Origin: an uncultured bacterium
GTDB taxonomy: Bacteria > Planctomycetota > UBA8108 > UBA1146
Length of the DNA: 54,477 nt
Reading direction: 5' to 3'
NCBI GenBank assembly: GCA_913056395.1
Contig: CAJXMG010000018.1
Coordinates: 1-54,477 of the forward strand
Below, piece by piece: positions 25,688-52,848 of this stretch. A model generated the notes under the pieces. It searched no databases, was not told the origin of the DNA, and was given only the letters and a program-made list of their open reading frames with translations. The position numbers and the translations under genes are program-made. Each line of letters opens with the position of its first letter. Position 1 is the stretch's first letter.

Positions 25688-25916
25688 GGCTGATATCCCC
25701 AGGCCCAACCCCTTCAGAGCCCCCTTGGGGAACTGATCTGCCTTCCCAAACGTCTCTGGTGTTGCAGGAAAAGTAGATTTTCGCCATCCTCATACCAGGG
25801 GAATAAAGGGGGATGGGTTCGTCCGTCCTCCCGTCGGGCCTTCGGGAATGTCCCGCAGGTCATTTCGGGCTAAAGATGCGCCACCAAACGGCCGATGTTT
25901 GGAGGTGGAGGGACCG

Positions 25917-27953
25917 ATGAACAACCATTTCATTTTTCACGATCTGATTCGCCAAAACATGGAGTCTGAAAGATTCCGTGAACTTCACTGGACCGGCACC
26001 TTCGACGATTACATGTCGATCGCTGCGCGGAACCCGGACGTTCTCAGGACTTCGTTTCAGCGAGTCCACGACATGATCGTCTCGTATGGAAGTGAACCTT
26101 CGACGCAACTCAATTCGAAGGACGGTCTTCACTGGAAGTTTTTCGATGACCCGGACAATGACGGAGACAATGCCGTCTTTGGTCTGGATCAGCCGATTAA
26201 CCAGCTGGTGAGTTTCTTCAAGTCCGCTGCCCATAATCTGGGAACAGAGAAGCGTGTATTGCTTCTTCATGGTCCAGTGGGTTCCGCAAAAAGCACGATC
26301 GTCAGTTTGATCAAGCGCGGTCTCGAGCGTTACAGCCGTAAGCCGGAAGGCGCCCTTTACACATTCCAGTGGGAAGATGAAAACGGCAACTGGGTTGATT
26401 CGCCGATGAACGAGGATCCGTTCTATCTCATCCCGGAAGAAGCTCGTGCGGATGTCATCGGGAAAATTAGTCAAGAGAGTGACGTGCGATACCCCATCGT
26501 CATGAAGGGCAGCCTGTGTCCCTTCAGCCGTTGGTACTACAACCATTACATGCAGAAGTACGACGGAGACTGGGAGCGCATGATTCAGCATGTCCGGGTC
26601 CGTCGACTTGTGATGTCTGAGGAGGACCGTGTCGGCATCGGCACCTTCCAGCCCAAAGATGAAAAGAACCAGGACTCAACCGAGCTCACCGGTGATATCA
26701 ACTACCGCAAGATCGCTGAGTATGGTTCCGAATCAGATCCTCGCGCCTTCAATTTCGACGGTGAATTCAATGTTGCCAACAGGGGAGTGATCGAGTTCAT
26801 CGAGGTGCTCAAGCTGGATGTGGCATTCCTCTATGATCTTCTCGGGGCCAGCCAGGAGCAGTCGATCAAGCCGAAGCGTTTTGCCCAGACTGCCATCGAC
26901 GAGGTCATCATTGGTCATACCAATGAGCCTGAATACCGCAAGCTGCAAAGCAATGAGCTGATGGAGGCATTCAGGGACCGAACCGTCAAGATCGACATCC
27001 CCTACAACACCACGTTGCAGGACGAGGTCAGCATCTACCGCAAGGATTACTCCACCAAGGCGATCCAGCAGCACGTGGCTCCCCACACCCTCGAGGTTTG
27101 CGCCATGTGGTCTGTGCTCACACGTCTTGAGGAGCCGAAAAATGCCCAGATCACTCTTGCCCAGAAGATGAAACTTTACGACGGCAAGACGATGTCCGGA
27201 TTCACGGAAGAAAACGTCAAGGAACTTCGTGACGAAGCACAACGCGAGGGACTTGAAGGTATTTCACCTCGTTACATTCAGGACAAGATCTCGAATGCCC
27301 TCGTATCCGATTACAACTACGTGAATCCATTCATGGTCCTCAATGAGATCGATGAGGGTTTGAAGCACCACAGCCTGATCTCTTCTGAAGAGGTTCGCCA
27401 GCGTTACAGGGAGTTGCTCTCTGTGGTCAAGGGCGAGTACGAAGACATCGTCAAAAACGAAGTCCAGCGTGCGATCAGTGCAGATGAGGAAGCCATTCAG
27501 AAGCTCTGCTCCAACTACATCGATAACGTCAAGGCCTACACCCAGCGTGAAAAGGTCAAGAATCCCTACACGGGACAGTCTGAGGATCCGGATGAAAGAT
27601 TGCTCCGATCCATCGAAGAGAAAATCGACATCCCCGAGAGTCGAAAGGATGATTTCCGCCGGGAAATCATGAACTACATTGGTGCGTTGGCTGTTGAGAA
27701 CAAACAGTTCGACTACTCCACCAATGCTCGACTTCAGCGGGCCCTGGAGATGAAGCTCTTCGAAGACAAGAAGGACACCATCAAGTTGACCTCACTGGTC
27801 TCCGACGTGGTGGACAAGGAGTCTCAGGCCAAGATCGATGTGGTCAAGACCCGTTTGATCGAGCAGTACGGATACAATGAGGACAGCGCAACAGACGTGC
27901 TGAACTACGTTTCCAGTATCTTTGCCCGGGGTGATTCCAAAAACGCAACCTGA
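25917..27953 (+). CDS. prkA: PrkA family serine protein kinase
   Basis: 678 aa from ATG 25917, which follows a GGTGGAGGG ribosome site; the open frame starts earlier but the family N-terminus is near this Met. The AAA domain contains [17 protein letters not shown] (Walker A at about 119-126) and a [15 protein letters not shown] segment. The C-terminal PrkA domain contains [17 protein letters not shown]. PrkA/YeaG proteins act in stress and sporulation regulation. The gene is first of the conserved trio with DUF444 and SpoVR, 18 bases apart. Confidence 0.93.
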
Positions 27954-27971
27954 TCATGAGAGGTCATGCAC

Positions 27972-29072
27972 ATGCGCAAGATCGATCCTGATGCCAATCG
28001 TTTTCGGAAGATTGTCCGCGGTAAAATCAGGGAGAATCTGAAACAGTACGTTTCTCAGGGAGAGCTGATCGCCCGACAGGGCAAGAAATCAGTCAGCGTG
28101 CCCCTGCCGCAAATCGATTTGCCCAACTTCCGGTTTGGTCAGGCTGACCAGGGTGGTGTGGGGCAGGGAGAAGGTGACGAGGGGGATCCCCTCGGTGCTG
28201 AGCAGGCGGAGCCGGGCCCGGAAGCGGGAGATCAGCCGGGGGAACATGTCCTTGAAGTGGACGTGAACCTCGAAGAGTTGGCCGAGATTCTCGGAGAAGA
28301 GTTGGAGCTGCCCAACATCGAGCCGAGAGGCTCGAGCAGCATTCTCGTTGAAAAGGACAAGTACACCGGGATTACCCGTAATGGCCCAGAATCTTTGAGG
28401 CACTTCCGCAGAACCTTCAAGCAGGCATTGCGCAGGCAAATCTCTTCAGGTTCTTACAGCAAAGAGAACCCGGTGGTGACCCCTCACAGGGAAGATCGCC
28501 GGTATCGCTCCTGGAACACCTCAAAAGTTCCCCAATCAAATGCGGTCATCCTTTACATGATGGATGTATCCGGCTCGATGGGAAATGAGCAGAAGGAGAT
28601 CGTCAGAATCGAATCCTTCTGGCTCGATACGTGGCTGCGCAGTCAATACGAAAACCTGGAGACCCGGTACATCATTCATGATGCAAAAGCCAAGGTGGTC
28701 GATGCGCATACTTTCTTCCACATCCGTGAGTCGGGTGGAACAAAGATCTCCAGTGCATACTCGCTTGCGAAAGAACTGATTCAAAAAGAGTTCTCTCCGG
28801 AAGAGTGGAATATCTATCTGTTTCATTTTTCGGATGGCGATAACTGGGGCGGTGATGACACCACGCAATGCCTCGAACTCCTCAACAGCGAGTTGTTGCC
28901 AGCGGTCAACGTTTTCTGCTATGGCCAGGTGAAGAGCGCATACGGGAGTGGGCAGTTCATCAAGGATCTGCGCCAAGCCTACCAAGAGCACGAAAAAGTC
29001 CTCTTGTCAGAGATTAACTCACGAGATGAGATTTTGCCGTCCATCAAGACTTTCCTGGGGAAGGGACACTGA
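27972..29072 (+). CDS. DUF444 (YeaH/YhbH) family protein with VWA domain
   Basis: 366 aa from ATG 27972, best spaced from GAGAGG (27958-27963); ATG 27966 is an alternative. After a basic N-terminus ([19 protein letters not shown]) comes a Gly/Glu/Gln-rich acidic linker (about 60-95), then a conserved region [20 protein letters not shown] and a von Willebrand A-like domain whose metal site DVSGSMG starts at about residue 198. Members sit between PrkA and SpoVR in many bacteria and share their stress regulation; molecular function is not established. Confidence 0.92.
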
Positions 29073-29073
29073 C

Positions 29074-30570
29074 ATGTTTCATGATCGTGATCTGACTCCC
29101 GAGTTGGTCGAGTGGAAAGATACGATTCGTCAGGTCGCCGTTGATTCAGGGCTGGATTTCTTTGAGGTCCTCTTTGAAATGGTGGACTACGACGAAATGA
29201 ATATGATCGCGGCCTATGGAGGGTTCCCGGTTCGGTATCCCCATTGGAGATGGGGAATGCAGTTTGAGGAGTTGCAAAAGCAATACTCCTACGGCATGGC
29301 GAAGATCTATGAGCTGGTGATCAATAATGATCCCTGCTATGCCTACCTCATGCGGTGTAATCCACTGGTGGACCAGAAGCTGGTGATGTCACACGTCTAT
29401 GGGCACAGCGACTTCTTCAAAAACAACGCCTGGTTCGGCAAGACCGATCGCAAAATGGTCGACACCATTTCGAATCATGCTGTCAGAATCAATCGCTATA
29501 TCGATGAACACGGTAAAGACACTGTTGAGCAATTCATCGACGTCTGTCTATCCGTGGAAAATCTCATCGATATCCACTCACCGTACTTTTCCCAAAAGGA
29601 GAAAGTGACGGAAGAGCAAAGAGCGAAAGAGCGCCAAGAAGCTCAAGGCAACAGAATCCCAACCCGTTCTTACATGGAAGGTTTCATCAACCCTCCGGAT
29701 GTCATCGAACAGGAAAAGCAGGAGATTCTCGAGAAGATTGAGCAGACGGAACGTTTTCCCCAGGATCCCCAAAAGGATGTGTTGCTCTTCCTTTTGCATC
29801 ACGGGCGTCTGCAATCATGGCAGCGCGATGTGCTTTCCATCGTCAGGGATGAGGCCTATTACTTCGCCCCCCAGGGAATGACCAAGATCATGAATGAGGG
29901 TTGGGCATCCTTCTGGCACAGTCGAATCATGACCGGTGGCATCCTCGATGCGAGTGAGTTGATCGATTACGCCGATCACCATGCTGGAACTATGGGTGGA
30001 GGGTCAGGAAAACTGAATCCCTATAAACTGGGCATCGAGTTGTTCCGCGATATTGAGAGACGCTGGGATGCAGGTCAGTACGGCAGCGAGTGGGAGTCCT
30101 GTGAAGATGTCCATGGTCGTAATGACTGGGATCTGGGTCACAACAAGGGTCTGGAAAAGATTTACTCGGTGAGATCGACTCATAATGATATTACTTTCAT
30201 CGATGAATTCATGACTGAAGACTTTGCCGTTCGCCAAAACCTCTACACCTACAAATTCGATCGATCCCAATCACAGTACGTGATGGAGAGTCGCGATTTC
30301 CGGGATGTCAAAAATCGGCTTTTGGATCAGTTGGCTAATTCCGGCCGTCCCCAAATCGAAGTGACCGACGGAAATTACGGCAACCGGGGTGAACTGCTTT
30401 TGGAGCATCATTGGACCGGAACTCCCCTGAAAATGGATTATGCGAGGCGAACTCTGGAGAATCTGGAGAAACTCTGGGGCAGGCCGGTGCATCTGAAAAC
30501 GCAGATCGAAAACAAGGTCAAGATTCTCGGCTACAACGGTTCACGCCACGAAGAGCGCAACGAATCCTGA
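29074..30570 (+). CDS. SpoVR family protein
   Basis: 498 aa from ATG 29074, one base after the DUF444 stop, so probably translationally coupled. Recognisable segments include [77 protein letters not shown] and [13 protein letters not shown]. SpoVR (E. coli YcgB) is named for a Bacillus spore-cortex phenotype, but the PrkA-DUF444-SpoVR set is widespread in non-spore-formers. There is no sporulation context here. Confidence 0.93.
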
Positions 30571-30718: not shown

Positions 30719-33700
30719 ATGCGTCCCGCCCGTTTCGTCACGGCAGCCAGTCTTTTCGACGGTCACGATGCATCCATCAATATCATTCGCCGTGTTCTTC
30801 AGGATCAAGGCGCGGAGGTGATCCATTTGGGTCACAACCGAAGCGCAGAGGAAATTGTGACCACTGCCATTCAGGAGGACGCAGATGGCATCGCCGTCTC
30901 CTCCTATCAGGGTGGCCACAATGAATTCTTCCGATTCATGTATGACCTTCTGCAAGAAAAAGGCGCTCCCTGGATCAAACTTTTTGGTGGTGGTGGCGGC
31001 GTCATCGTTCCTGCCGAGATTGAGGCTCTCCATGCTTACGGAATTGAACGGATCTACTCCCCTGAAGAGGGGCGTGATCTGGGTCTCGAGGGGATGGCTG
31101 AAGACATGGTTGCCCGCTGTGGGAACCTGAATGGCAATCCTGTCAGGGGCGAGAGACTCCCACAGCGAATCACCCGAATCGAATTGGGAGAATCAGAAGT
31201 TTCCGGGGAACGAAAAATTCCCGTGATTGGGCTCACCGGAACCGGTGGAGCCGGAAAATCTTCACTGACCGATGAACTTTTGCGCCGTTTCCTTCAGGAT
31301 TTCCCTGATCGACGCTTTGCCATCGTCAGTGTCGATCCCACCAAACGTCGCACTGGTGGTGCACTTCTGGGGGATCGCATCCGCATTAACAGTTGCGATC
31401 ACCCGAGAGCTTACGTGAGGTCGTTGGCAACCCGATCAAGCGGTGTCGAAGTACCTGAGGCCATCCGTGGTGCGATTCGGGAAGTCAGCCAGGATGAGTT
31501 TGACCTGGTGTTGCTGGAGACTTCCGGTATCGGCCAGGGGGACAGCAGGGTGACAGATCTTGCTGATCTCTCTGTCTATGTGATGACCCCCGAATATGGT
31601 GCGGCAAGTCAGCTCGAGAAGATCGACATGATCGACTATGCCGATGCCATCGTCCTCAACAAGTCCGATCGGGCGGGAGCACGGGATGCCATCCGTGATA
31701 TCCGCAAGCAGTATCGCAGAAGCCGCAAGATCTTTGATCATGAAGTTGCCGATGACGATTTGCCGATCTTTGGTACCGTTGCCAGCCATTTCAATGATGC
31801 CGGAGTGGAAACCTTCTACCGCTACCTCCTGGAGCATCTGGGGAAATCTGAGAGCAGTTGGGAAGTTCCCTCTTCAAGGCTCAGTGTCGCGGGAGATGAC
31901 CGCCCGGCAGTGATCCCTGCTGACCGCAGTGGGTATCTTCTCGATATCATCCAGACTGTGCAGGAGTACCACAAAAACGTTCAACGCCACTCCGAGAAGG
32001 TCGCTGACGTTGAATCTCTTGATCGAAGTGCCCAGTTGGTGGGAGAAGACCAGTCGCACCCTCTGAAGGAAATGGCCCGGTCTCTGGAAGAGGATCTTCC
32101 ACCAGAGATTCGACGTCTCCTCGACCAATGGGGAGAGATGAAAGAAGCCTATTCCGGATCAGAGTTGGTTTTCAAAATTCGTGACCGGGAGATTCGGGAG
32201 CCTCTGCATGTTGAAACCTTGGCAGGAACGCAGTTGCCGAGGGTTTCTTTGCCCAAAATCGAAGGACGTGGGGATATCACCCGTTGGTTGATGTTGGAAA
32301 ACCTCCCAGGGCATTTCCCCTACACGGCAGGAGTTTTCCCCTTCCGCAGAAGAGACGAGCATCCAAAAAGGATGTTTGCCGGCGAAGGGCCACCGGAAAA
32401 AACCAATGCCCGATTCCATTACCTATGCAAGGGCGAAGACGTTCATCGCCTTTCGACCGCTTTTGATTCGGTAACCCTCTACGGAGAAGATCCTGATCGC
32501 CGCCCGGATATCTATGGCAAGGTCGGTGAAAGTGGAGTTAGCATTTGCACCCTCGATGACATGAAGAAACTCTACGACGGATTTGATCTCTGTGCGCCGA
32601 GTACTTCCGTTTCGATGACCATCAACGGACCTGCACCGATGATTCTGGCGATGTTCTTCAATACCGCCATCGATCAGCAAGTGGAGAAGTACCGTCAGGA
32701 GAAGGGGGCAGAGCCTGATCAGCAAGCCATGGAGGAGATCGAGCAATTCGTTCTTCAGAATGTCCGTGGAACAGTTCAGGCGGATATCCTCAAGGAGGAT
32801 CAGGCACAGAATACCTGTATCTTCAGTATCGATTTCGCATTGAGAATGATGGGGGATATCCAGCAATTCTTCATCGATGAAAAAGTACGCAACTACTACT
32901 CGGTTTCGATCAGTGGTTACCACATTGCTGAAGCAGGAGCCAATCCCATCACCCAGTTGGCGTTTACTCTCGCCAACGGTCTGACCTACATCGAGTACTA
33001 CCGGTCACGGGGAATGAATGTGGACGATTTCGCACGAAATCTGTCCTTCTTCTTCTCCAACGGACTCGATGCAGAGTACTCGGTACTGGGCAGGGTGGCC
33101 CGTCGCCTTTGGGCTGTGATCATGCGTGACCTCTATGGAGCCAACGAACGTAGTCAGAAGCTGAAGTATCATATTCAGACCTCGGGCCGCTCACTGCATG
33201 CGATGGAAATCGACTTCAACGATATTCGAACAACTTTGCAGGCGTTGATGGCCTATTACGACCAGTGCAATTCACTTCATACCAACTCGTATGACGAAGC
33301 GATCACGACACCGACGACCGAGTCTGTACGCAGGGCGATGGCGATTCAGTTGATCGTCGCAGAAGAACTGGGGCTCGCCAAAAATGACAACCCCCTGCAG
33401 GGCTCTTTCGTCATCGAGGAACTGACAGAGCTGGTTGAGCAGGCGGTACTTGAAGAGTTCCGTCGTCTGCATGATCGGGGTGGTGTTCTCGGTGCTCTGG
33501 AGCGCCAGTATCAGAGATCAAAGATTCAGGAAGAATCGCTACTCTATGAACACCGCAAACATACCGGCGAATTGCCCATCATCGGCATCAATACCTTCCT
33601 GCGTCCAGAAGGCTCTGAGGAACCTGACATGGAGATCGAGCTGCGTCGTTCGACCACGGATGAGAAGGATCAGCGCATCGTTGATCTTGCCGATTTCCAT

Positions 33701-33868
33701 CAGAAGCATTCGGATCAGAGTGGGGCAGCCCTCGAGAAACTCAAGGAGGTTGCACTGTCCGGAGGAAACATCTTCCGCGAGTTGATGTCGACGGTCCGGG
33801 TAGCAAGCCTGGGACAGATCAGTGCAGCACTCTATGAGGTGGGTGGACGCTACCGTCGCAACATGTAG
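30719..33868 (+). CDS. icmF: IcmF: fused isobutyryl-CoA mutase with G-protein domain
   Basis: 1049 aa, ATG after GGAGCC. The N-terminal B12-binding domain (about 1-140) has [12 protein letters not shown], His 16 being the expected cobalt ligand, and [12 protein letters not shown]. The MeaI-type GTPase (about 165-400) has [25 protein letters not shown] and an intact NKSD (VLNKSDRAG). The substrate-binding mutase domain (about 505-1049) shows [11 protein letters not shown] and [19 protein letters not shown], characteristic of IcmF rather than methylmalonyl-CoA mutase. It interconverts isobutyryl-CoA and n-butyryl-CoA (some members act on pivalyl- or isovaleryl-CoA) using adenosylcobalamin. Acyl-CoA dehydrogenase and thiolase genes lie 14-19 kb downstream. 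Confidence 0.95.
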
Positions 33869-42868: not shown

Positions 42869-45800
42869 ATGGGTTTTCCGAGAACCCTGCTGTTCTGGGT
42901 GTTGCTGGCGAGCTTCACTCCTTCTGTTTTTGCGCAAGTATTGGAGTCTGGAGATTCGAAGACGGCTAAAGCCGACATTCTAATTTCTACCAAGACTGGC
43001 CTCGCGAGCATGATCAGCGGAAAAAATCAGGGGATCCTACCGATTGAAGCCGATCCCAATGACCCTCTCGCGGTATTCAAGACCTATGGAGAGGCTTTCG
43101 GAGTCAAGGATGCCATCAATGAGTTGGTTCGCATCGAAACCTTCAAGGATCACCTGGGTCAAATCCATCACCGGTATCAGCAAGTTCACAGGGATATCGA
43201 GGTTTTCACCGGACGACTGATCGTTCATCAAAATGAAAAAGGCGAGTTTCTGGCGGTCAACGGTGATTTCTATCCGATTCGCCCCGGTGTTCCCACTCAG
43301 CCGCTGATCTCTGTTGAAGAGGCCCAGTTGCTGGTTCAGAACGAGTTGGGTCTCGTCAATCCGGTCTTTGGAGAAGCTCGACTGGTTCTGGTTGACCCCG
43401 GGTGGTACGGCGATCCCAGCCCGGGACTGGTGAGACTCGCCTACAAAATGAGTGCTGCGGGTGATGGCTTTTTTGCTGAATACGTATTGATCGACGCGAG
43501 GGACCGAAGCGTCTTCGACCGATGGCCTGCGGTTCATTCCGCCATCGACCGCAAGATCTATGACGGATCGGGCGGGTCACTTCCCGGAAATCTGGTGAGG
43601 GGTGAGGGGGCGAGTCAAACCGGTGATCCTGAACTCGACAATCTCTATGATTTCGTCGGTGATTTTCATCAGTTCCTGCTTCAGGGGTATGGTCGTGACA
43701 GTATCGATGGAGCGGGAGCTCCCCTGGTGGCAACGGGGCGTTGGAGTGCGGGAATCTGTCCCAACGCCATCTGGAATGGCAGCGGAACCGCTTATTGCGC
43801 AGGGCTGGCAACCGACGACATCGTCGGCCACGAGTTTGGTCACGGCCTCGTCGATTACACCGCAGATCTGATCTATCAGAATCAGTCGGGACAATTGAAT
43901 GAGTCCTTTGCCGATGTCTTCGGTGAGTTGATCGATCTCTATAACGGAAATGCCTCAGAAGCGGGCCCCCCTGGGGGACCGGCATGGCCCGGAAGTGGAG
44001 TTTCCGGGACAGATACTCCCAATACAGCGAGAAGTGGTTGTGGAGATGGATCGGTACGCTGGTTGATGGGGGAAGACAGTTCACTCGGAGCGATTCGTGA
44101 CATGTGGTCTCCGACCTGTGCGGGAGATCCGGACAGGGCATTAAGTGCGCTTTATGAGTCGACCTGTTGTGACCCCGGTTTCGACGCGGGCGGAGTCCAT
44201 TTCGGATCCGGTGTTTCCAATCATGCGTTTGCCATGTTGACGGATGGCAAGACCTTCAATGGAGTCACGATTCAATCATTGGGCCCCATCAAAACCGGTG
44301 CCATCTGGTATCGCGCTCTGAGTGTCTACCTGACGCCGGCTTCAGGGTTCAATGAGGCCTACAACGCTTTCATTCAGGCAGCCAATGATCTGGTTGGCTC
44401 CACGCCACTCGATCCACGCACAGGAGCTCCGTCATCCAGTACGTTTACTGCTGCAGATGTGACCGAGGTGACCAACGCTCTTACGGTTGTGGAGATGAAT
44501 GCCAGTGGAATCTGTGCATTGCCTCCAGCACCCGCCAATGATGACTGTGCGACCGCAGAAGTGATCACTCCAGGATTGCATGCCCATGACAATCGGGGAG
44601 CGACCGACAGCGGAATCGTTGCCGACGATACACAATGTTCAGCAACTTACCTTGGGCAAGTTTCCAGAGACATCTGGTACTCCTTTACACCGGTTCAGGA
44701 TGGAACGATCACCGTTAGTACTTGCAACATCGGCGGCTTCGACACCGATCTCGTGGTCTACACCGGTGTCTGCGGTTCATTGGTTCAGCAAGGTTGTAAC
44801 GGGGACGCTTCGGGTTGTAGCAGTTTCACCTCGATTCTTGCGGATTTGCCAGTCACCGGCGGGACCGAGTACCTGGTTCGCCTGGGTGCTTTTGGAACCA
44901 GTGGCGGCGTGGGTGAATTGGAGTTGGTCTTCAATCCTGGCGGTGGAACCCCCATCGAGGTCTGCAATAACGGTGCAGACGATGACGGCGATGGAGCCAT
45001 CGATTGTGCGGATACAGATTGCAGCGCCGATCCGGCCTGTTCCGGAACTCCCGTGGAAGATTGCACCAATGGGGTCGATGACGACGGAGATGGAGCCGTT
45101 GATTGCCTGGATTCCGATTGTGTCGGGGCCCCCGGCTGCAGCGGAATCGCCGGTGATGAATGCAATGATCCCATCGTCGCTTCGGCGGGCCTCAATGCAG
45201 TGGATACAACTCTGGCGACCACTTCCACGGATGCCTCTGATCCTACCCAGTGTTCCGGCACTTTCTTGGGAGGCTTCCATTCAGATATCTGGTACAGCTT
45301 TACCCCTGCGTCAGATGGTCTTTTGACCGCAAGTCTTTGTGGATTGATCAATTTTGATTCCGACATCGCCGTGTATCAGGGAGCGTGCGGATCTCTCTCT
45401 CAAATTGCCTGTAACGGAGATACCCCCGGTTGCGCAGGCTTGTCTTCAAGGGTCACGGACGTTCCAGTGAGTTCCGGTGTTGAATACCGAATCCGTGTAG
45501 GTGGTTGGAATGAAACTGCCAACGGAACGGGTGATCTGGAATTAACTCTGAGCAGCGGCAGTCAGGAAAACTGTCAGAATGGGACTGATGATGATCTGGA
45601 TGGCCTGACAGACTGTGAGGATCCCGATTGTTCCGCTGATCCGGGTTGCATTCCATTCCCGGGTGACGAGTGCACCGATGCATTGCCTGTGTTTGAGGGG
45701 CTGAATAGTCTCGATACCAGCGGTGCCAGTGACAGTTCAGAGTCAGTACCCGCATGTGGTTCTTTCCTGGGTGCAATGTCCAATGATACCTGGTACCAGT

Positions 45801-47179
45801 ATGTTGCCTCTGCCACAGGAGTGTTGACGGTTTCTGCATGTGATATGGGTGCCTTTGATTCAGGTATCGTGATCTACAGCGGAAGCTGTGGCGCCCTGAG
45901 CATGATCAGTTGTTCCGGTGAAGGCTGTAATCCCCTTGCCGCTTCTGTTTCAGCGAGTGTGAATGCAGGACAGCAAATCCTGATCCGTTTTGGTGCAGCG
46001 AATACAGGTCAATCGGTGACCGGAAACCTGCAAGTGACCTTGGAGATTCCTCAACCGGAGGATTGCCAAAATGGAATCGATGATGATCTGGATGGTCTGA
46101 TCGACTGCCTCGATACCGATTGTTCCTCAGATCCGGTTTGTACATGTGATGCCATCACCAATCTGACCTGTTCCCAAACTGCGGGATTGGCCGTGGATCT
46201 GGCCTGGAGCAATGGAGAGCTTTATCAGGAGATTCAGATCACTCGCAACGGGGCGCTTCAGGCGGTGCTTTCCGGCTCCGATTCCTCATACACTGACAAT
46301 GGTGGAAGTGCGGGCAACCGGGTCTACTCGGTCATTGGAGTTTGCGCCCAGAATGAAGCGACTGCAGTCTGTGTCATCGATGTTCAGGAGCCGTCCGGTT
46401 TCTCGATCGTTGCACCCCAGGTAACCGCCAGCTTTGATGGCGTGACCGGTGTCGGTTCAGTGAGCGTCGATCTGTCGGTCGCTGAAGAAGCCACCAACCC
46501 CGGGTTCCCCAATGCGACTCAGGGTTTCTCACTTTCCATCGCCAATGACCCTGCATTGATCCAACCCGTTTCTGTGCAGCCCTCGGCTCTCCTGCAGCAA
46601 CTCAATGGAAGTTCGGGGCCAGATTTCTTCACGGAAGGGATCTTTGCCGGGGGGATCACTCTTGGTGTGGTCTACTCCTTCACGGGTCTGGATGTGATTC
46701 AGTTCACTTCGGAATCGTCGGTGGCCAACATTTCATACGACACTGTCGCGGGGAATCTGGCGGGTCAGGTCGATCCGGTCCAGACCGCACTGACATGGTC
46801 CGAGAGTGTCGGTCCGAATCCTGTGGAAAACATTGTCGTGGTCAATGCTGCGACGGTCCTTCCCGTCGAGGTTCACGGGTCGGTTACCCTGGAGCCACAG
46901 TTGGGGGGTGTTATCTCCAGAGCAGATTGCAATGCGGATGGCAGTTTCAACATCGCAGATGCGGTCGAGGCCCTGAATGGTCTCTTCAACAGTGCACCCA
47001 TCGATTGTGTCGACGCTTGCGACGCCAATGACGATGGGCAGTTCAATGTTGCAGACCCGGTGTTCACCCTGTCGGCCCTCTTCAGCAACGGTGCCTTGCC
47101 ACCGGCACCTTTTGGTGTGTGTGGAGTCGATCCCACTGAAGATGGTCTCACATGTGATCAGTTTGCCCCCTGTCCCTGA
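42869..47179 (+). CDS. Secreted thermolysin-like metalloprotease, multidomain
   Basis: 1436 aa. The signal peptide (TLLFWVLLASFTPSVFA) is followed by an FTP/PepSY-type propeptide (about 50-215) and an M4-like catalytic domain. HEFGH (321-325) and downstream Glu in LNESFADVFG (345) give HEXXH-x19-E, exactly the thermolysin spacing. Three beta modules of pre-peptidase-C type start near 554, 762 and 932 (DIWYSFTPVQDGTITVSTC and similar). Four Cys/Asp repeats of the type CxNGxDDDxDGxxDCxDxDC lie near 698, 731, 901 and 1066, probably calcium-binding. Then come an FnIII-like segment, a cohesin-like domain (about 1178-1345) and two dockerin-like EF repeats (about 1351, 1382). It probably digests extracellular protein or surface polymers. 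Confidence 0.92.
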   Translation: MGFPRTLLFWVLLASFTPSVFAQVLESGDSKTAKADILISTKTGLASMISGKNQGILPIEADPNDPLAVFKTYGEAFGVKDAINELVRIETFKDHLGQIHHRYQQVHRDIEVFTGRLIVHQNEKGEFLAVNGDFYPIRPGVPTQPLISVEEAQLLVQNELGLVNPVFGEARLVLVDPGWYGDPSPGLVRLAYKMSAAGDGFFAEYVLIDARDRSVFDRWPAVHSAIDRKIYDGSGGSLPGNLVRGEGASQTGDPELDNLYDFVGDFHQFLLQGYGRDSIDGAGAPLVATGRWSAGICPNAIWNGSGTAYCAGLATDDIVGHEFGHGLVDYTADLIYQNQSGQLNESFADVFGELIDLYNGNASEAGPPGGPAWPGSGVSGTDTPNTARSGCGDGSVRWLMGEDSSLGAIRDMWSPTCAGDPDRALSALYESTCCDPGFDAGGVHFGSGVSNHAFAMLTDGKTFNGVTIQSLGPIKTGAIWYRALSVYLTPASGFNEAYNAFIQAANDLVGSTPLDPRTGAPSSSTFTAADVTEVTNALTVVEMNASGICALPPAPANDDCATAEVITPGLHAHDNRGATDSGIVADDTQCSATYLGQVSRDIWYSFTPVQDGTITVSTCNIGGFDTDLVVYTGVCGSLVQQGCNGDASGCSSFTSILADLPVTGGTEYLVRLGAFGTSGGVGELELVFNPGGGTPIEVCNNGADDDGDGAIDCADTDCSADPACSGTPVEDCTNGVDDDGDGAVDCLDSDCVGAPGCSGIAGDECNDPIVASAGLNAVDTTLATTSTDASDPTQCSGTFLGGFHSDIWYSFTPASDGLLTASLCGLINFDSDIAVYQGACGSLSQIACNGDTPGCAGLSSRVTDVPVSSGVEYRIRVGGWNETANGTGDLELTLSSGSQENCQNGTDDDLDGLTDCEDPDCSADPGCIPFPGDECTDALPVFEGLNSLDTSGASDSSESVPACGSFLGAMSNDTWYQYVASATGVLTVSACDMGAFDSGIVIYSGSCGALSMISCSGEGCNPLAASVSASVNAGQQILIRFGAANTGQSVTGNLQVTLEIPQPEDCQNGIDDDLDGLIDCLDTDCSSDPVCTCDAITNLTCSQTAGLAVDLAWSNGELYQEIQITRNGALQAVLSGSDSSYTDNGGSAGNRVYSVIGVCAQNEATAVCVIDVQEPSGFSIVAPQVTASFDGVTGVGSVSVDLSVAEEATNPGFPNATQGFSLSIANDPALIQPVSVQPSALLQQLNGSSGPDFFTEGIFAGGITLGVVYSFTGLDVIQFTSESSVANISYDTVAGNLAGQVDPVQTALTWSESVGPNPVENIVVVNAATVLPVEVHGSVTLEPQLGGVISRADCNADGSFNIADAVEALNGLFNSAPIDCVDACDANDDGQFNVADPVFTLSALFSNGALPPAPFGVCGVDPTEDGLTCDQFAPCP

Positions 47180-47467: not shown

Positions 47468-48352
47468 ATGAGCAGTGACGCTGTCTCCATCGTCGAAAAC
47501 ATCCAAAAAGTGACCGTCGTCGGGGCTGGAACCATGGGCAATGGAATCGCCCAGGTTTTTGCGTCCTCGGGGTATCCAGTCACCATCATCGATCCCTTTG
47601 AGGCTTCCCTCGAGCGAGCCCGCGGGGCCATCGATCACAGTCTTGGCAGAATGGTCAAAAAAGAGAAGATCAGCGCCGAAGATGCCCAGGCGATTCTGGG
47701 GAGGGTCTCCTTTGAAACCTCCATCGCTTCTGCGGCAGGATCCCAGTGGGCGGTGGAAGCGATTCCTGAAGAGGAAAAGCTCAAGGAAGAGGTGCTTTCC
47801 GGTTTGGACGAGCACGTGGAAGCGGGCGGAGTCATCGCCAGCAACACCTCATCCATTTCGATTACGCGGCTTGCGAGTTACACCCAGCGCCCCGAGCGGT
47901 TCGTCGGCATGCACTTCATGAATCCGGTGCCGATGATGAAACTGGTGGAAGTGATTCGCGGGCATAAAACCGAAGATGCGGTTCTTGAGGCGACTATGGA
48001 GTTGTCCCGTCGTCTCGGCAAGGAGCCTTGGCAGGCAGAGGACTACCCGGGATTTGTGGCCAACCGGATTCTGTGCCCCATGCTCAACGAAGCGATGTAC
48101 GCACTCATGGAGGGCGTCGCGACGCGGGAATCCATCGACGAAGTCATGAAGCTCGGTATGGGTCACCCCATGGGCCCATTGACCCTTGCAGATTTTGTTG
48201 GCCTCGATGTATGTCTCAACATTCTTGAGGTTTTGCATGAAGAGTTGGGAGACCCCAAATACCGTCCTTGCCCGCTCCTTCGCCGAATGGTGGCCGCAGG
48301 AGATTTGGGCAGAAAAACCGGGCGTGGTTTCTACGACTACTCCGAAAAATAG
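47468..48352 (+). CDS. 3-hydroxybutyryl-CoA dehydrogenase
   Basis: 294 aa, the single-function form of this family. The NAD motif [20 protein letters not shown] is followed by [12 protein letters not shown], the catalytic [17 protein letters not shown], and a C-domain with [34 protein letters not shown] and [12 protein letters not shown]. It reversibly oxidises (S)-3-hydroxybutyryl-CoA. It opens a cluster of acyl-CoA genes; no enoyl-CoA hydratase is seen within the window. Confidence 0.93.
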
Positions 48353-48373
48353 AAGCAGTTGTAAGGAGTTCGG

Positions 48374-49576
48374 ATGCTGGAAAGTACCGGAACCGAAATT
48401 GAATCTTCCGGAAGACTGGGAGCGATTCTCGGAGTCTCTGTTCCTGAGACTCATCGTCAGATGTATGCAGAAGCCAAGCAGTTTGCCGATGAAGTTCTGA
48501 TCCCCGCGGCCGATCTTCACGATCGGGAGGAGTCCTTTCCCGAGAGCCAGGTGAACGCTCTCGCAGAAAAAGGCTTCCTCGGAATTCTTGCTCCGGAGCA
48601 ATATGGGGGAATGGGCCTCGACAATCTGGCTCTGACCCTGGCTCTGGAAGAGATCAACCGCGGTTGTGCCAGTACAGGGGTCACCCTCTCGGTGCACAAC
48701 TCTCTGCTCTCGAGTCCGTTGCTTCACTTTGGGACCGAAGAACAGAAGGAGCGCTTTTTCCCCGGTTTGGCTTCGGGAAAATCCCTCGGCGCCTATGCCA
48801 TCACTGAGCCGGATCATGGTTCGGATGCCCTCTCCATTGAGACGACCTGCCGCAAAGAGGGGGATGAGTGGATCCTGAACGGTACGAAAGCCTGGATCAC
48901 CAATGGTTCCCGCGCCGGGACCATCATCACTTTTGCCACCATGGACCCTGCATTGAGATCGAAGGGGATCAATGCATTTGTCGTCGATCCATCGATGCCC
49001 GGTTTCTCGGTCGGTAAAAAGGAATTGAAGTTGGGCATCAGGGGATCTGACACGGTCCAGCTCGTCTTCGATGAGATGCGTGTGCCAGCTGCCAATCTTC
49101 TGGGTGAAGAGGGGCAAGGCTTCAAGATCGCCATGCACACTCTCGATGGTGGACGCGTGGGAATCGCTACGCAGGCTGTGGGTATTGCCCAGGCCTGTCT
49201 CGATGCCGCTGTGGAATTCGCAGAAGGTCATGAAATGTTTGGCCGCCGCCTGGCAGACAATCAGTTGGTCTCTCACAAGATTGCTGACATGGCCACACGT
49301 ATCGAGGCATCACGTCTGCTCACTTTGCGCGCAGCGATGCTCAAGGATGCCGGTGCTCCACACAGTCGTCAGGCTTCGATGGCCAAGTTGAGTGCATCCG
49401 AAATTGCCAATGATGCCGCACGCATGGCACTGGAAATTCATGGAGGGGCCGGCATTGGTCGCCAGTCTCCGATCGAGAGACTTTTCCGGGATGCAAAGAT
49501 TTGTGAGATCTACGAAGGAACCAGCCAGATTCAGCGACTGGTGATCGCCCGTCACGTCAGGCCGGATCGCAGTTAA
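48374..49576 (+). CDS. Acyl-CoA dehydrogenase (short-chain type)
   Basis: 400 aa. FAD/substrate motifs: GAYAITEPDHGSDALSI, WILNGTKAWITNGSRAG, LGIRGSDTVQLVFDEMRVP, MFGRRLADNQLVSHKIADMA and IHGGAGIGRQSPIERLFRDA. The catalytic base is intact in CEIYEGTSQIQRLVIAR (Glu before GTS), as in butyryl-type enzymes. It desaturates short acyl-CoA with electrons passed to ETF (family knowledge). Its stop overlaps the MeaB gene by one base (TAATG). Confidence 0.93.
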   Translation: MLESTGTEIESSGRLGAILGVSVPETHRQMYAEAKQFADEVLIPAADLHDREESFPESQVNALAEKGFLGILAPEQYGGMGLDNLALTLALEEINRGCASTGVTLSVHNSLLSSPLLHFGTEEQKERFFPGLASGKSLGAYAITEPDHGSDALSIETTCRKEGDEWILNGTKAWITNGSRAGTIITFATMDPALRSKGINAFVVDPSMPGFSVGKKELKLGIRGSDTVQLVFDEMRVPAANLLGEEGQGFKIAMHTLDGGRVGIATQAVGIAQACLDAAVEFAEGHEMFGRRLADNQLVSHKIADMATRIEASRLLTLRAAMLKDAGAPHSRQASMAKLSASEIANDAARMALEIHGGAGIGRQSPIERLFRDAKICEIYEGTSQIQRLVIARHVRPDRS

Positions 49577-50496
49577 TGCCGAATCCTCTACTGGAAAAAC
49601 TGGCCCAGGGAATCCTTCAGGGACAGCGACGTGATTTGGCGCAAGCCATCACCGCCGTTGAGACCGATGAGAGTGCAGCGGATGTCTTGCTCTCGATTCT
49701 CCCACCCACATCCGGGGCTTTTCGTCTCGGATTGACCGGTGCCCCCGGGGTGGGGAAATCCACTTTTATCTCACAGGTGGTTCCGAGGCTGGTTGAAGCG
49801 GGCTCCAAGGTTGCGATTCTCGCAGTCGATCCAACCAGTCCTCTGACAGGAGGAGCCCTGTTGGGGGATCGTGCCCGCATGGTCAAGGACATGGGCGAAG
49901 CCTGTCTTTTCCGGAGTCTCGCAAGCCGTGGTTCCACCGGAGGAGTGGCGGGGTGCACCGATCTCGCAGCAGAGATCCTGGCCCGGGCCGGCTTCGACAT
50001 CATTCTGATTGAAACTGTGGGAGTGGGCCAACTGGAGGTGGAGATCGCCACAGAAGCGGATCAATCCTGGTTGCTTTTGTCCCCTGAGGGAGGCGATGCC
50101 ATCCAGTTGCTCAAAGGGGGTGTCCTGGAAGTGGTTCATCGGGTGATCGTTCACAAATGTGATCGTCCTGGATCCGATGATCTGATGCGTTGGGCGGATG
50201 AAGCCGCCCGTGATCAGCACTCCCCGGCTCCCATTGCTGTCAGCAGCCAGTCCGGTGAAGGGCTGGATGAAGTGGTGGCAGAAATTCGCAAGGCTGCTGA
50301 GGGTCAAAGACAACAACCGGACACTGATCGGGAAAAATCCCGCCTGCGTAGACGATTGATGCGCAGGGCTCACCAGGAATGGATCAAAAAAGGTCTCGAG
50401 AAGGCGGGTGGAGATTCCGGTATCGATCGTCTCGTCGATGACGTGATGAGCGGTCAGATGGACGTGGGTGCAGCCCTGTCCTCGATCCTCAAGTAA
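49576..50496 (+). CDS. meaB: MeaB/ArgK-family GTPase
   Basis: 306 aa, coupled to the preceding gene by TAATG. P-loop GLTGAPGVGKSTFIS, switch [19 protein letters not shown] and LIETVGVGQLEVEIA are conserved. The usual G4 motif NKxD reads HKCD (VIVHKCDRPGSDD), an Asn-to-His change that may alter guanine specificity. MeaB chaperones B12-dependent mutases, loading and protecting adenosylcobalamin. IcmF in this window carries its own fused G domain, so MeaB probably serves a separate methylmalonyl-CoA mutase elsewhere. Confidence 0.88.
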   Translation: MPNPLLEKLAQGILQGQRRDLAQAITAVETDESAADVLLSILPPTSGAFRLGLTGAPGVGKSTFISQVVPRLVEAGSKVAILAVDPTSPLTGGALLGDRARMVKDMGEACLFRSLASRGSTGGVAGCTDLAAEILARAGFDIILIETVGVGQLEVEIATEADQSWLLLSPEGGDAIQLLKGGVLEVVHRVIVHKCDRPGSDDLMRWADEAARDQHSPAPIAVSSQSGEGLDEVVAEIRKAAEGQRQQPDTDREKSRLRRRLMRRAHQEWIKKGLEKAGGDSGIDRLVDDVMSGQMDVGAALSSILK

Positions 50497-50527
50497 TCGA
50501 TGCTCAAGTAACAGGAGAGGAACAGCC

Positions 50528-51670
50528 GTGATTCGGTTTGAAGAACACCATCAGGAGATTCGCGAAATGATCTCCGACTTTTCCGATGAAAAGATTGCAC
50601 CCGGAGCGGAGCACCTGGATGAAACCCAGGGGCTTCCGAAGGAGTCCATCGCTGAAATCGCTGAACTGGAAATGCTCGGATTGACGATTCCTGAGGCACA
50701 TGGTGGAGCTGGCCTCGACCTGTTGAGTGCATGTCTGGTCGTCGAGGAGATCTCCCGGAACTGTGGTTCCACCGGAGCAATCCTCTCGACACACCTCTTC
50801 GAAGGTACCGCGGCCATTCTTCGCCTGGCGGATGATGCGGGCAAGGAGCGCTGGCTTCCTGACATGGCGAGCGGAAAAACCCTTGCTACCTTTGCCCTCG
50901 CGGAGCGAGAAGCAGAATCGGATGCCTCCGCCATCGATGCCTCAGCAGGTGCAGAGGGGGATGGATTTGTGATTCATGGGCGCAAGACCTGGATCATGGG
51001 TGGCATGATGGCGGGGTTGACGACCGTCATCGCCCGTCGCGGAGAAGAAAATCTGGAAGATCTGGGTGCATTCGTGATCGACCCCGAAGTGGATGGTTGC
51101 GAGCGTGAGCCGATGGAAGATCTGCTGGGTTTGCGTGGGGCTGGATTCTGCAACATGAACCTGAATGGTGTCATGATGTCAGCGGATCAGCACCTCAAGG
51201 GGAGCCGTGAGGGGTGGTCTGCGATCACCAAGGTGATAGATACCGCTCGCCTCGGTGCCGCTGCCGTCAGTCTCGGTGTAGCCCGTGGAGCCATCGCCCA
51301 TGCCCTCGAATATTCCTCCCAGAGAAAAGCCTTCGGTCGTTCCATCGATCGCTTCGGTGCGATTCGTGCCATGCATGCTGAGGCAGCCACCGCCGTCGAG
51401 GGGGCACGTCTGTTGCTTTGGCGTGCAGCTGGCTTGATCGATGCCGGAAAGTCTGCAGGACGTGAAGTTTCGATGGCGAACCTCGCCGCCAAGCAGGCCT
51501 CTTACAAGGCCACACGGGATGCTGTTCAGATCCTTGGCGGCAATGGATACAGTCGTGAGTACCCGGTAGAGAGAGCGTATCGAGACGTTCAGGCTCTCGT
51601 TCCCTTCGGTGGTGGTGAAGATCTGCAAAAGATTCTCGTCGCCCGTTCCATGGCGGGAGTGCGTTCATGA
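50528..51670 (+). CDS. Acyl-CoA dehydrogenase homologue lacking the usual catalytic Glu
   Basis: 380 aa from GTG 50528, preceded by AGGAGAGG at about 8 nt. The fold is clear: TFALAEREAESDASAIDASA, FVIHGRKTWIMGGMMAG, LLGLRGAGFCNMNLNGVMM, KAFGRSIDRFGAIRAMHAEA, LGGNGYSREYPVERAYRD. Aligned without gaps to the 48374 enzyme, EIYEGTSQIQ corresponds to VPFGGGEDLQ, so the catalytic Glu is Gly. The alternative isovaleryl-type position (VIDTARLGAAA) also lacks Glu. It may use another base, a different reaction, or be a partner subunit. The thiolase start overlaps its stop (ATGA). Confidence 0.88.
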   Translation: MIRFEEHHQEIREMISDFSDEKIAPGAEHLDETQGLPKESIAEIAELEMLGLTIPEAHGGAGLDLLSACLVVEEISRNCGSTGAILSTHLFEGTAAILRLADDAGKERWLPDMASGKTLATFALAEREAESDASAIDASAGAEGDGFVIHGRKTWIMGGMMAGLTTVIARRGEENLEDLGAFVIDPEVDGCEREPMEDLLGLRGAGFCNMNLNGVMMSADQHLKGSREGWSAITKVIDTARLGAAAVSLGVARGAIAHALEYSSQRKAFGRSIDRFGAIRAMHAEAATAVEGARLLLWRAAGLIDAGKSAGREVSMANLAAKQASYKATRDAVQILGGNGYSREYPVERAYRDVQALVPFGGGEDLQKILVARSMAGVRS

Positions 51671-52848
51671 GTCGTGCAGTCATCTGTTCTGCGGTGAGGA
51701 CGCCGATCGGCAAGTTTCTGGGCGGACTCTCGGAGCTGAGCCCCGCCGACTTGGGCGTGGCAGCGGTCAAACCGGCGTTGGAGCGGGCGGGAGTGCCTGC
51801 GGATCGAGTCGGTGAACTTCGTTTTGGCTGTGGGCGACAAGCAGGAGGGGGTCCCAATGTGGCCCGGCAGATTGCTGTTCGCTCCGGGATTCCGGTGACG
51901 AGTACTGCCGTCACCGTCAACATGGCGTGTGGATCTGGTCTGCTGGCGGTGATCGAAGCGCGGGATGCCATCGAACGTGGTGAGTTTGAGGTGGTGGTCG
52001 CCGGTGGCACCGAGAGCATGTCCCAGTTGCCCTTCTACATGTTGGGGGCTCGCAAAGGCTACAAGCTGGGCCAGGGTGAATTGGTCGATGGCATGTATCG
52101 GGACGGCTTCCATTGCCCCATGGCAGATCAGCTGATGGGTGCAACGGCGGAAAACCTCGCCGAAGAGTTCTCGATTTCCCGTGAAGAGCAGGATGCCTAT
52201 GCGGTTGAGACCCAGCAACGGTGTGAGCGTGCCCGCGAAGCGGGACACTTTGAGAGCGAAATCGCTGCTGTGGAAATCCCGGGTCGCAAGGGGCCCACGA
52301 TCATCGCGAAGGATGAGCATCCCCGCGATGGTGCCAATCTCGAATCGATGGCCAAGCTGAAGCCGGTCTTCAAGAAGGATGGTTCGGTTCATGCTGGAAA
52401 CTCTTCGGGAATAACTGACGGAGCCTGTGCCCTCGTCGTAGCGAGTGAAGAGGTGGCGAAGGCTGAAGGTTGGCCGATCCTCGCAGTTTTGGGTGCGTCT
52501 GCCCGTGGTGGTGTTGAACCGCATCGGATGGGAATGGGACCCGTTCCGGCGATTCATGCACTGCTGGAAAAGACCGGTGGATCACTGTCCGACTTCGCTG
52601 CTGTCGAAATCAATGAGGCCTTTGCGGCTCAGGTTCTCGCCTGTTTGCGTGAACTGGACATCGACCGGGAAAAGCTGAATCCCATGGGAGGGGCCATCGC
52701 TTTGGGTCATCCCATCGGTGCCACGGGGGCGAGAATTCTGACGACTCTCGTGCATGGTTTGCACAGGCAGGGCGGCGGAAAAGGGTTGGCCTCTCTCTGC
52801 ATCAGTGGCGGAATGGGGCTCGCGCTGGAAATCGAAGTGCTTTCCTGA
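51667..52848 (+). CDS. Acetyl-CoA acetyltransferase / thiolase
   Basis: 393 aa, ATGA overlap with the preceding gene. The nucleophilic Cys lies in TVNMACGSGLLAV; VVVAGGTESMSQLPFY, EINEAFAAQVLAC, GGAIALGHPIGATGARIL (catalytic His) and SLCISGGMGLALEIE (second Cys) complete the site. It condenses or cleaves acetyl-CoA/acetoacetyl-CoA, completing a butyrate/ketone-body-type cluster with the 3-hydroxybutyryl-CoA dehydrogenase. Biosynthetic or degradative direction cannot be told. Confidence 0.95.
   Translation: MSRAVICSAVRTPIGKFLGGLSELSPADLGVAAVKPALERAGVPADRVGELRFGCGRQAGGGPNVARQIAVRSGIPVTSTAVTVNMACGSGLLAVIEARDAIERGEFEVVVAGGTESMSQLPFYMLGARKGYKLGQGELVDGMYRDGFHCPMADQLMGATAENLAEEFSISREEQDAYAVETQQRCERAREAGHFESEIAAVEIPGRKGPTIIAKDEHPRDGANLESMAKLKPVFKKDGSVHAGNSSGITDGACALVVASEEVAKAEGWPILAVLGASARGGVEPHRMGMGPVPAIHALLEKTGGSLSDFAAVEINEAFAAQVLACLRELDIDREKLNPMGGAIALGHPIGATGARILTTLVHGLHRQGGGKGLASLCISGGMGLALEIEVLS

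Follow-up and report, generated by a model that had tools for sequence, protein, structure and literature searches.

We analyzed a window of 54,477 nucleotides (the whole stretch of DNA presented above) belonging to a genome of 2.77 Mb. At 47468-52848, the window carries five closely spaced genes on the + strand that code, in this order, for a 3-hydroxybutyryl-CoA dehydrogenase, an acyl-CoA dehydrogenase (ACAD; here ACAD-A), a MeaB-like GTPase, a second ACAD (ACAD-B), and a thiolase (Table 1). The ACAD-A and MeaB-like genes overlap by 1 base, and the ACAD-B stop and thiolase start overlap by 4 bases. The closest named relatives among the matches are Planctomycetota MAGs, such as SW42618_bin_2 and MCMED-G47 (ACAD-B 97% identical in both) and TMED53 (90%). 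The order A-MeaB-B was found in all 17 searched genomes of the order, and also in two other families of the same class (L049, L050), where B bears Glu and IcmF adjoins A or lies one gene off. In the window, IcmF lies ~14 kb upstream of the ACAD pair; it adjoins the pair or lies near it in some relatives. Genome-wide, the matches above cutoff included one ETF-alpha and eight crotonase-family proteins. The MeaB-like GTPase, which stands between A and B across families, scored 216.9 bits, below the NCBIfam MeaB cutoff of 240.75, and its dN/dS (0.058-0.063; three near pairs) exceeded those of the other four operon genes. Elsewhere in the window, PrkA kinase, YhbH, and SpoVR family genes follow one another at 25848-30570, a stress/sporulation trio in a planctomycete (PrkA and SpoVR scored below curated cutoffs), and a 1436-aa protein at 42869-47179 resembles, by eye, a secreted protease of the thermolysin type that contains repeats and whose C-terminus is dockerin-like.

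Table 1. Genes and sequence features of the ACAD locus (SCAD numbering in parentheses)
Feature	Position	Strand	Basis
IcmF, fused isobutyryl-CoA mutase/GTPase	30719..33868	+	1728 bits, cutoff 1500
3-hydroxybutyryl-CoA dehydrogenase-like gene	47468..48352	+	profile match
ACAD-A, Glu-bearing SCAD-like subunit, proposed partner	48374..49576	+	nearest solved structures by sequence are SCAD
ACAD-A His286, replacing donor Arg (R297)	49229..49231	+	alignment
ACAD-A Glu354, replacing donor Gln (Q365)	49433..49435	+	alignment
ACAD-A EIYEGTSQIQ, with catalytic Glu381	49505..49534	+	alignment
MeaB-like GTPase, between both proposed subunits	49576..50496	+	profile match
ACAD-B, base-less, proposed ACAD subunit, 380 aa, GTG start	50528..51670	+	Pfam N/M/C domains; AF2 model; Foldseek
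ACAD-B AEREAESD, degenerate flavin-site motif (S155 to A, G160 to E)	50900..50923	+	alignment
ACAD-B KTWIM, degenerate (flavin contact T187 to M)	50984..50998	+	alignment
ACAD-B Arg266, retained donor (R297), 17/17	51323..51325	+	alignment
ACAD-B Gln334, retained donor (Q365), 17/17	51527..51529	+	alignment
ACAD-B VPFGGGEDLQ, Gly361 (51608-51610) in place of catalytic Glu (E392)	51599..51628	+	alignment
Thiolase, start 4 bases inside the ACAD-B end	51667..52848	+	profile match

ACAD-B matched the N-terminal, middle, and C-terminal ACAD domains (PF02771, PF02770, PF00441) above cutoff, and the top Foldseek matches of its AlphaFold2 model (mean pLDDT 87, pTM 0.90) were human SCAD (TM 0.91-0.93). 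A purine-rich AGGAGAGGAAC stands upstream of the GTG start, and the aligned start is a start codon in 15 of the 15 named orthologue contigs examined (GTG 11, TTG 2, ATG 2). The protein is alignable with SCAD over almost its full length, and in the ungapped comparison with rat SCAD the stretch EIYEGTSEIQ becomes VPFGGGEDLQ, indicating that the catalytic Glu is replaced by Gly361. The coordinates, Pfam domains, and SCAD alignment thus agree with the initial annotation, which had described an ACAD homologue with Glu replaced by Gly and no Glu at the alternative helix-G position. The latter (the column before R272; the IVD/LCAD site) is Ala in the window protein (IDTARL) and Ser or Ala in the 17 orthologues (9 and 8, respectively), ruling out a base relocated onto helix G; at the J-K position, too, none of the 17 carries Glu (Gly 15, Ser 1, Ala 1). 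The annotation had further asked whether GGGED is conserved: 13 of 17 orthologues carry it literally, and four differ (GGSDS, GGSDA, SGSDD, ASPPE), ruling it out as a conserved catalytic motif as such, while the position of its Glu (364) carries an acidic residue in all but one of the 17 (E 13, D 3, P 1). Each of the 17 genomes searched in the order has an orthologue that is open and free of inner stops, and dN/dS is 0.020-0.022 at dS ~0.54 (three pairs with unsaturated dS), near the value for ACAD-A in the same three pairs (0.010-0.021). ACAD-B is therefore a gene under purifying selection and not a decaying one; a frameshift or pseudogene is ruled out. 3-Sulfinopropionyl-CoA desulfinase is a base-less ACAD; we rejected this identity, as NF042439, with a cutoff of 600, gave 218 bits, less than the 265 bits of the acryloyl-CoA reductase model (cutoff 640). 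Another ACAD, cyclohexenecarboxyl-CoA dehydrogenase, has Asp91 as an extra base.

We then compared the FAD-binding residues, using SCAD numbering. In human SCAD, F152, L154, S155, T187, G160, S161, E396, and "T364" contact FAD on the flavin side, R297, Q365, and G369 contact it from the adjacent monomer, and E392 is the base (PMC13027082); "T364" was taken as T394, position 364 being Ile in rat SCAD. In ACAD-B, the flavin-side motif S/TEP/AxxGS reads AEREAES and KxW[FI][TS] reads KTWIM, and three flavin-side residues are replaced in all 17 orthologues: G160 (E 16, D 1), T187 (M 7, I 5, V 5), and S155 (A 15, V 1, G 1). T394 and E396 are replaced as well, to which we attach little weight because the outgroup described below also varies there (T 84/101, E 83/101). 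On the adjacent-monomer side, R297, Q365, and G369 are all kept in 17 of 17. The earlier statement that the FAD-fold motifs are retained thus holds for the adjacent-monomer residues and fails for the flavin-ring half. Also kept are S161 (16/17) and the CoA-binding Arg R272 (17/17), which is odd for a purely structural subunit. Two new acids are conserved in ACAD-B, at residue 92 (50801-50803; SCAD L122; E/D/Q in 17/17) and residue 130 (G160; E/D in 17/17); possibly they reflect a reused dead pocket. In human SCAD, Q365H keeps the tetramer from forming, and G160S leaves activity severely impaired (PMC13027082).

ACAD-A changed on the other side. It keeps G160, T187, and E392 in all 16 full-length copies; a further copy, cut by a contig end (G012), fell under our 300-residue filter and was added back for the counts at Q365, R297, and Y293. 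With this copy included, none of the 17 has Gln at Q365 (E 16, A 1), 14 lack the Arg of R297 (H 13, K 1), which three retain, and Y293, near the donor residues, is F in 17 of 17; position 396 is Gln in 13 of 16. Within the order these changes form a series, with Arg and Ala365 in G016, Arg or Lys and Glu in G007, G010, and G012, and His and Glu in the other 13. The trend is opposite at the position of IVD Q323, an adenosine contact (PMC12369846) that our own mapping places at SCAD 308: A carries Gln in 16 of 16, and B carries Gly in 16 and Glu in 1, Gly occurring in 11 of 101 outgroup proteins. The window's genome encodes two other ACADs, not part of the outgroup set, in which position 365 is occupied by D and E and R297 is kept; such a substitution is thus tolerated in other branches, and Q365E by itself need not inactivate the site.

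The outgroup consisted of 101 ACADs, chosen for likeness to ACAD-B, from L072-L136 (65 of the best 80 loci, 233 matches) and L049-L056; matches with fewer than 300 aligned residues and L049-L056 copies duplicating aligned sequences in the set were left out before counting. R297, Q365, and G160 are present in 101 of 101, T187 in 98 (Ser in 3), E392 in 99, and Leu at L122 in 99. Among the 20 positions invariant across this outgroup, ACAD-A lost exactly two, R297 and Q365 (the chance for two random positions is 1 in 190). At the 51 positions conserved in at least 95% of the outgroup, A lost 5 and B lost 16, with none in common; this zero overlap is weak on its own (~0.14, calculated by hand for 5 and 16 of 51). 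In all 26 named outgroup loci that have both an IYEG-type and an IGEGT-type ACAD, the 52 proteins keep Glu, G160, R297, and Q365 (at T187, Thr 51 and Ser 1), and G024, a genome of the same class checked separately, has Glu in both copies. Several genomes of this class gave no match at E 1e-60. A third, MCAD-like ACAD, examined in 13 genomes of the order, keeps Glu, G160, R297, Q365, and G369, with Ser in 12 and Thr in 1 at T187; G003 also lists a third ACAD. In contrast to ACAD-B, the ACADs of loci L111 and L126 have their Glu on helix G, as in IVD and LCAD, and Ala or Gly where the base usually stands.

Since A and B each lost the half-site that the other kept, most likely they work only as a mixed pair. 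We put at roughly three in four the probability that ACAD-A, as alpha, and ACAD-B, as beta, form an obligate A2B2 ACAD in which each AB dimer has one working FAD site; we infer this physical complex and its FAD stoichiometry from the aligned residues. The isoalloxazine ring of FAD would lie in A, beside Glu381 and the substrate pocket, and Arg266 and Gln334 of B would hold the adenosine end. In the mirror site, composed of the B flavin pocket and the A adenosine face, neither side would still function, so that B would be a pseudoenzyme serving to complete the cofactor site of A. A heteromer with the 48374 enzyme was one of three readings offered in the initial annotation, and the loss of the opposite FAD half by the 48374 protein makes it the best supported of these.

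That ACAD-B is a stand-alone enzyme whose base was replaced by Glu364 of GGGED (another of those readings), by helix-E Glu92 (L122), or by Glu130 (G160) appears unlikely to us. In its favor are the residues at these positions (364 acidic in 16 of 17, L122 E/D/Q in 17 of 17, G160 E/D in 17 of 17), the invariant CoA-binding Arg, and the ability of the base to shift within ACADs, as onto helix G in IVD (PMC5798300). Against it, the contacts to the flavin itself, T187 and G160, are gone, so that ACAD-B's own FAD site looks broken and the proposal of GGGED Glu as a substitute base is weakened; the severe effect of G160S on human SCAD (PMC13027082) points the same way, and A's loss of the adjacent-monomer residues would be left unaccounted for. 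We regard it as similarly improbable that ACAD-B is an FAD-free acyl-CoA-binding or regulatory protein that, alone or on A, reports CoA-ester levels to the operon enzymes: the lost flavin-side residues, the retained R272 and S161, and an ACAD fold predicted with good confidence would fit, but R297, Q365, and G369, which donate to FAD and would be needless in such a protein, are invariant, and A's complementary loss is again unaccounted for. That A and B are independent, A binding FAD as a homotetramer whose adenosine face has changed and B being a paralogue in slow decay, is very unlikely; the faster evolution of ACAD-B (stem length 0.86 vs. 0.32 for ACAD-A; mean pairwise identity 0.68 vs. 0.78, 120 genome pairs) and the D or E at Q365 in two other ACADs of the genome would agree with it, and decay of B is contradicted by the open frames, the dN/dS of ~0.02, and the invariant donor residues. 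Different chemistry in ACAD-B, the last of the three readings, has a low probability.

The proposed heterotetramer resembles the alpha2beta2 steroid ACADs ChsE4-ChsE5 and ChsE1-ChsE2, together with IpdE1-IpdE2 and the fused CasC, in having two ACAD genes of which one is base-less (PMC8399759, PMC11153573, PMC6678751). In ChsE4-ChsE5, the alpha subunit carries Glu and binds both the isoalloxazine and the substrate, and the beta subunit contacts the ADP-ribose of FAD (PMC11153573; also PMC8399759). Here too, two paralogous ACAD genes, one of them base-less, lie together (A-MeaB-B, 17/17), and, as judged by sequence only, A would provide the flavin-ring contacts and the base and B the ADP-ribose contacts, with the IVD Q323 site trending the opposite way. 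Unlike the steroid enzymes, A and B are SCAD-like, are encoded in an operon with hydroxybutyryl-CoA dehydrogenase, thiolase, and MeaB, and have MeaB between both genes. PimC/PimD pimeloyl-CoA dehydrogenase is likewise a two-gene ACAD, and a heterotetramer has been suggested for a related pair (PMC12543098), but on A and B the models TIGR03203 and TIGR03204 scored only 27-113 bits, with cutoffs >620. By model, B scored 81 (pimD), 27 (pimC), and 42 (IpdE2) bits and A scored 113 (pimC), 102 (pimD), and 54 (IpdE2) bits, at cutoffs of 450-653. The poor fit of these PimC/PimD and IpdE2 models to both proteins suggests that the arrangement arose separately, in the short-chain branch. SCAD (PDB 1jqi, 2vig) is the nearest solved structure by sequence (A and B) and by fold (B), but it assembles as a homotetramer in which every monomer has its own FAD (PMC13027082), whereas A and B each lack one half-site. 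ACAD-B also recalls LCAD, IVD, and benzylmalonyl-CoA dehydrogenase, which have Gly or Ala at the usual Glu of the J-K loop (PMC11659651); IVD, however, has its Glu on helix G, where ACAD-B has Ser or Ala, and keeps the flavin contact T200 (PMC12369846), which ACAD-B lost. In the excerpts available, the heteromeric ACADs of the open literature come from steroid degradation plus one suggested dicarboxylate pair (PMC12543098), and among the open-literature matches listed we found no heteromeric ACAD from Planctomycetota or of SCAD type.

Phylogenetic analysis placed ACAD-A as one clade within the IYEG-type ACADs; ACAD-B, likewise a single clade (support of 100 in each of two trees), fell on the IGEGT-type side. 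In a quick tree of 135 rows, ACAD-B had as its neighbors the B copies with Glu from L078, L080, and L102 (SH-aLRT 95), a placement that carries a long-branch warning. A careful tree retained 74 of the 135 rows after removal of near-copies, long branches, and L048 and thinning of the outgroups; in it, ACAD-B was again one clade (100/100), and IYEG-type proteins plus A split from IGEGT-type proteins plus B (99/95). Since this tree leaves the attachment of B unfixed, the orthology of ACAD-B rests partly on the common A-MeaB-B order. Pairwise identities of A and B covary (Spearman 0.96; 120 genome pairs), as expected for co-inherited genes, which is no proof of contact. Most likely, ACAD-B descends from a Glu-bearing paralogue that still lies beside A in other Planctomycetota. 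More tentatively, two complete homotetrameric ACADs could have become one obligate heteromer through complementary loss, the base and flavin pocket of B and Q365 of A being lost in the order's ancestor and R297 of A later within the family, with the dead pocket of B (CoA Arg, new acids) maybe reused as a regulatory acyl-CoA site; we consider this history possible but doubtful.

From the hydroxybutyryl-CoA dehydrogenase, thiolase, and IcmF genes of the window, we infer the substrate and reaction direction of the proposed heterotetramer: the substrate is likely a short acyl-CoA such as butyryl-CoA, and butyryl-CoA oxidation, perhaps from isobutyryl-CoA, would be the likeliest role. The 48374 gene, seemingly a complete butyryl-CoA dehydrogenase, may code for a protein that is inactive alone, a warning for annotation. 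If our reading is true, heterotetrameric ACADs would extend beyond the steroid and dicarboxylate branches into core short-chain metabolism, and these Planctomycetota would offer a natural series for the origin of an obligate heteromer, from other families, whose pairs are complete, through the sister family and basal genera, where the loss is partial, to the window's genus, where it is full.
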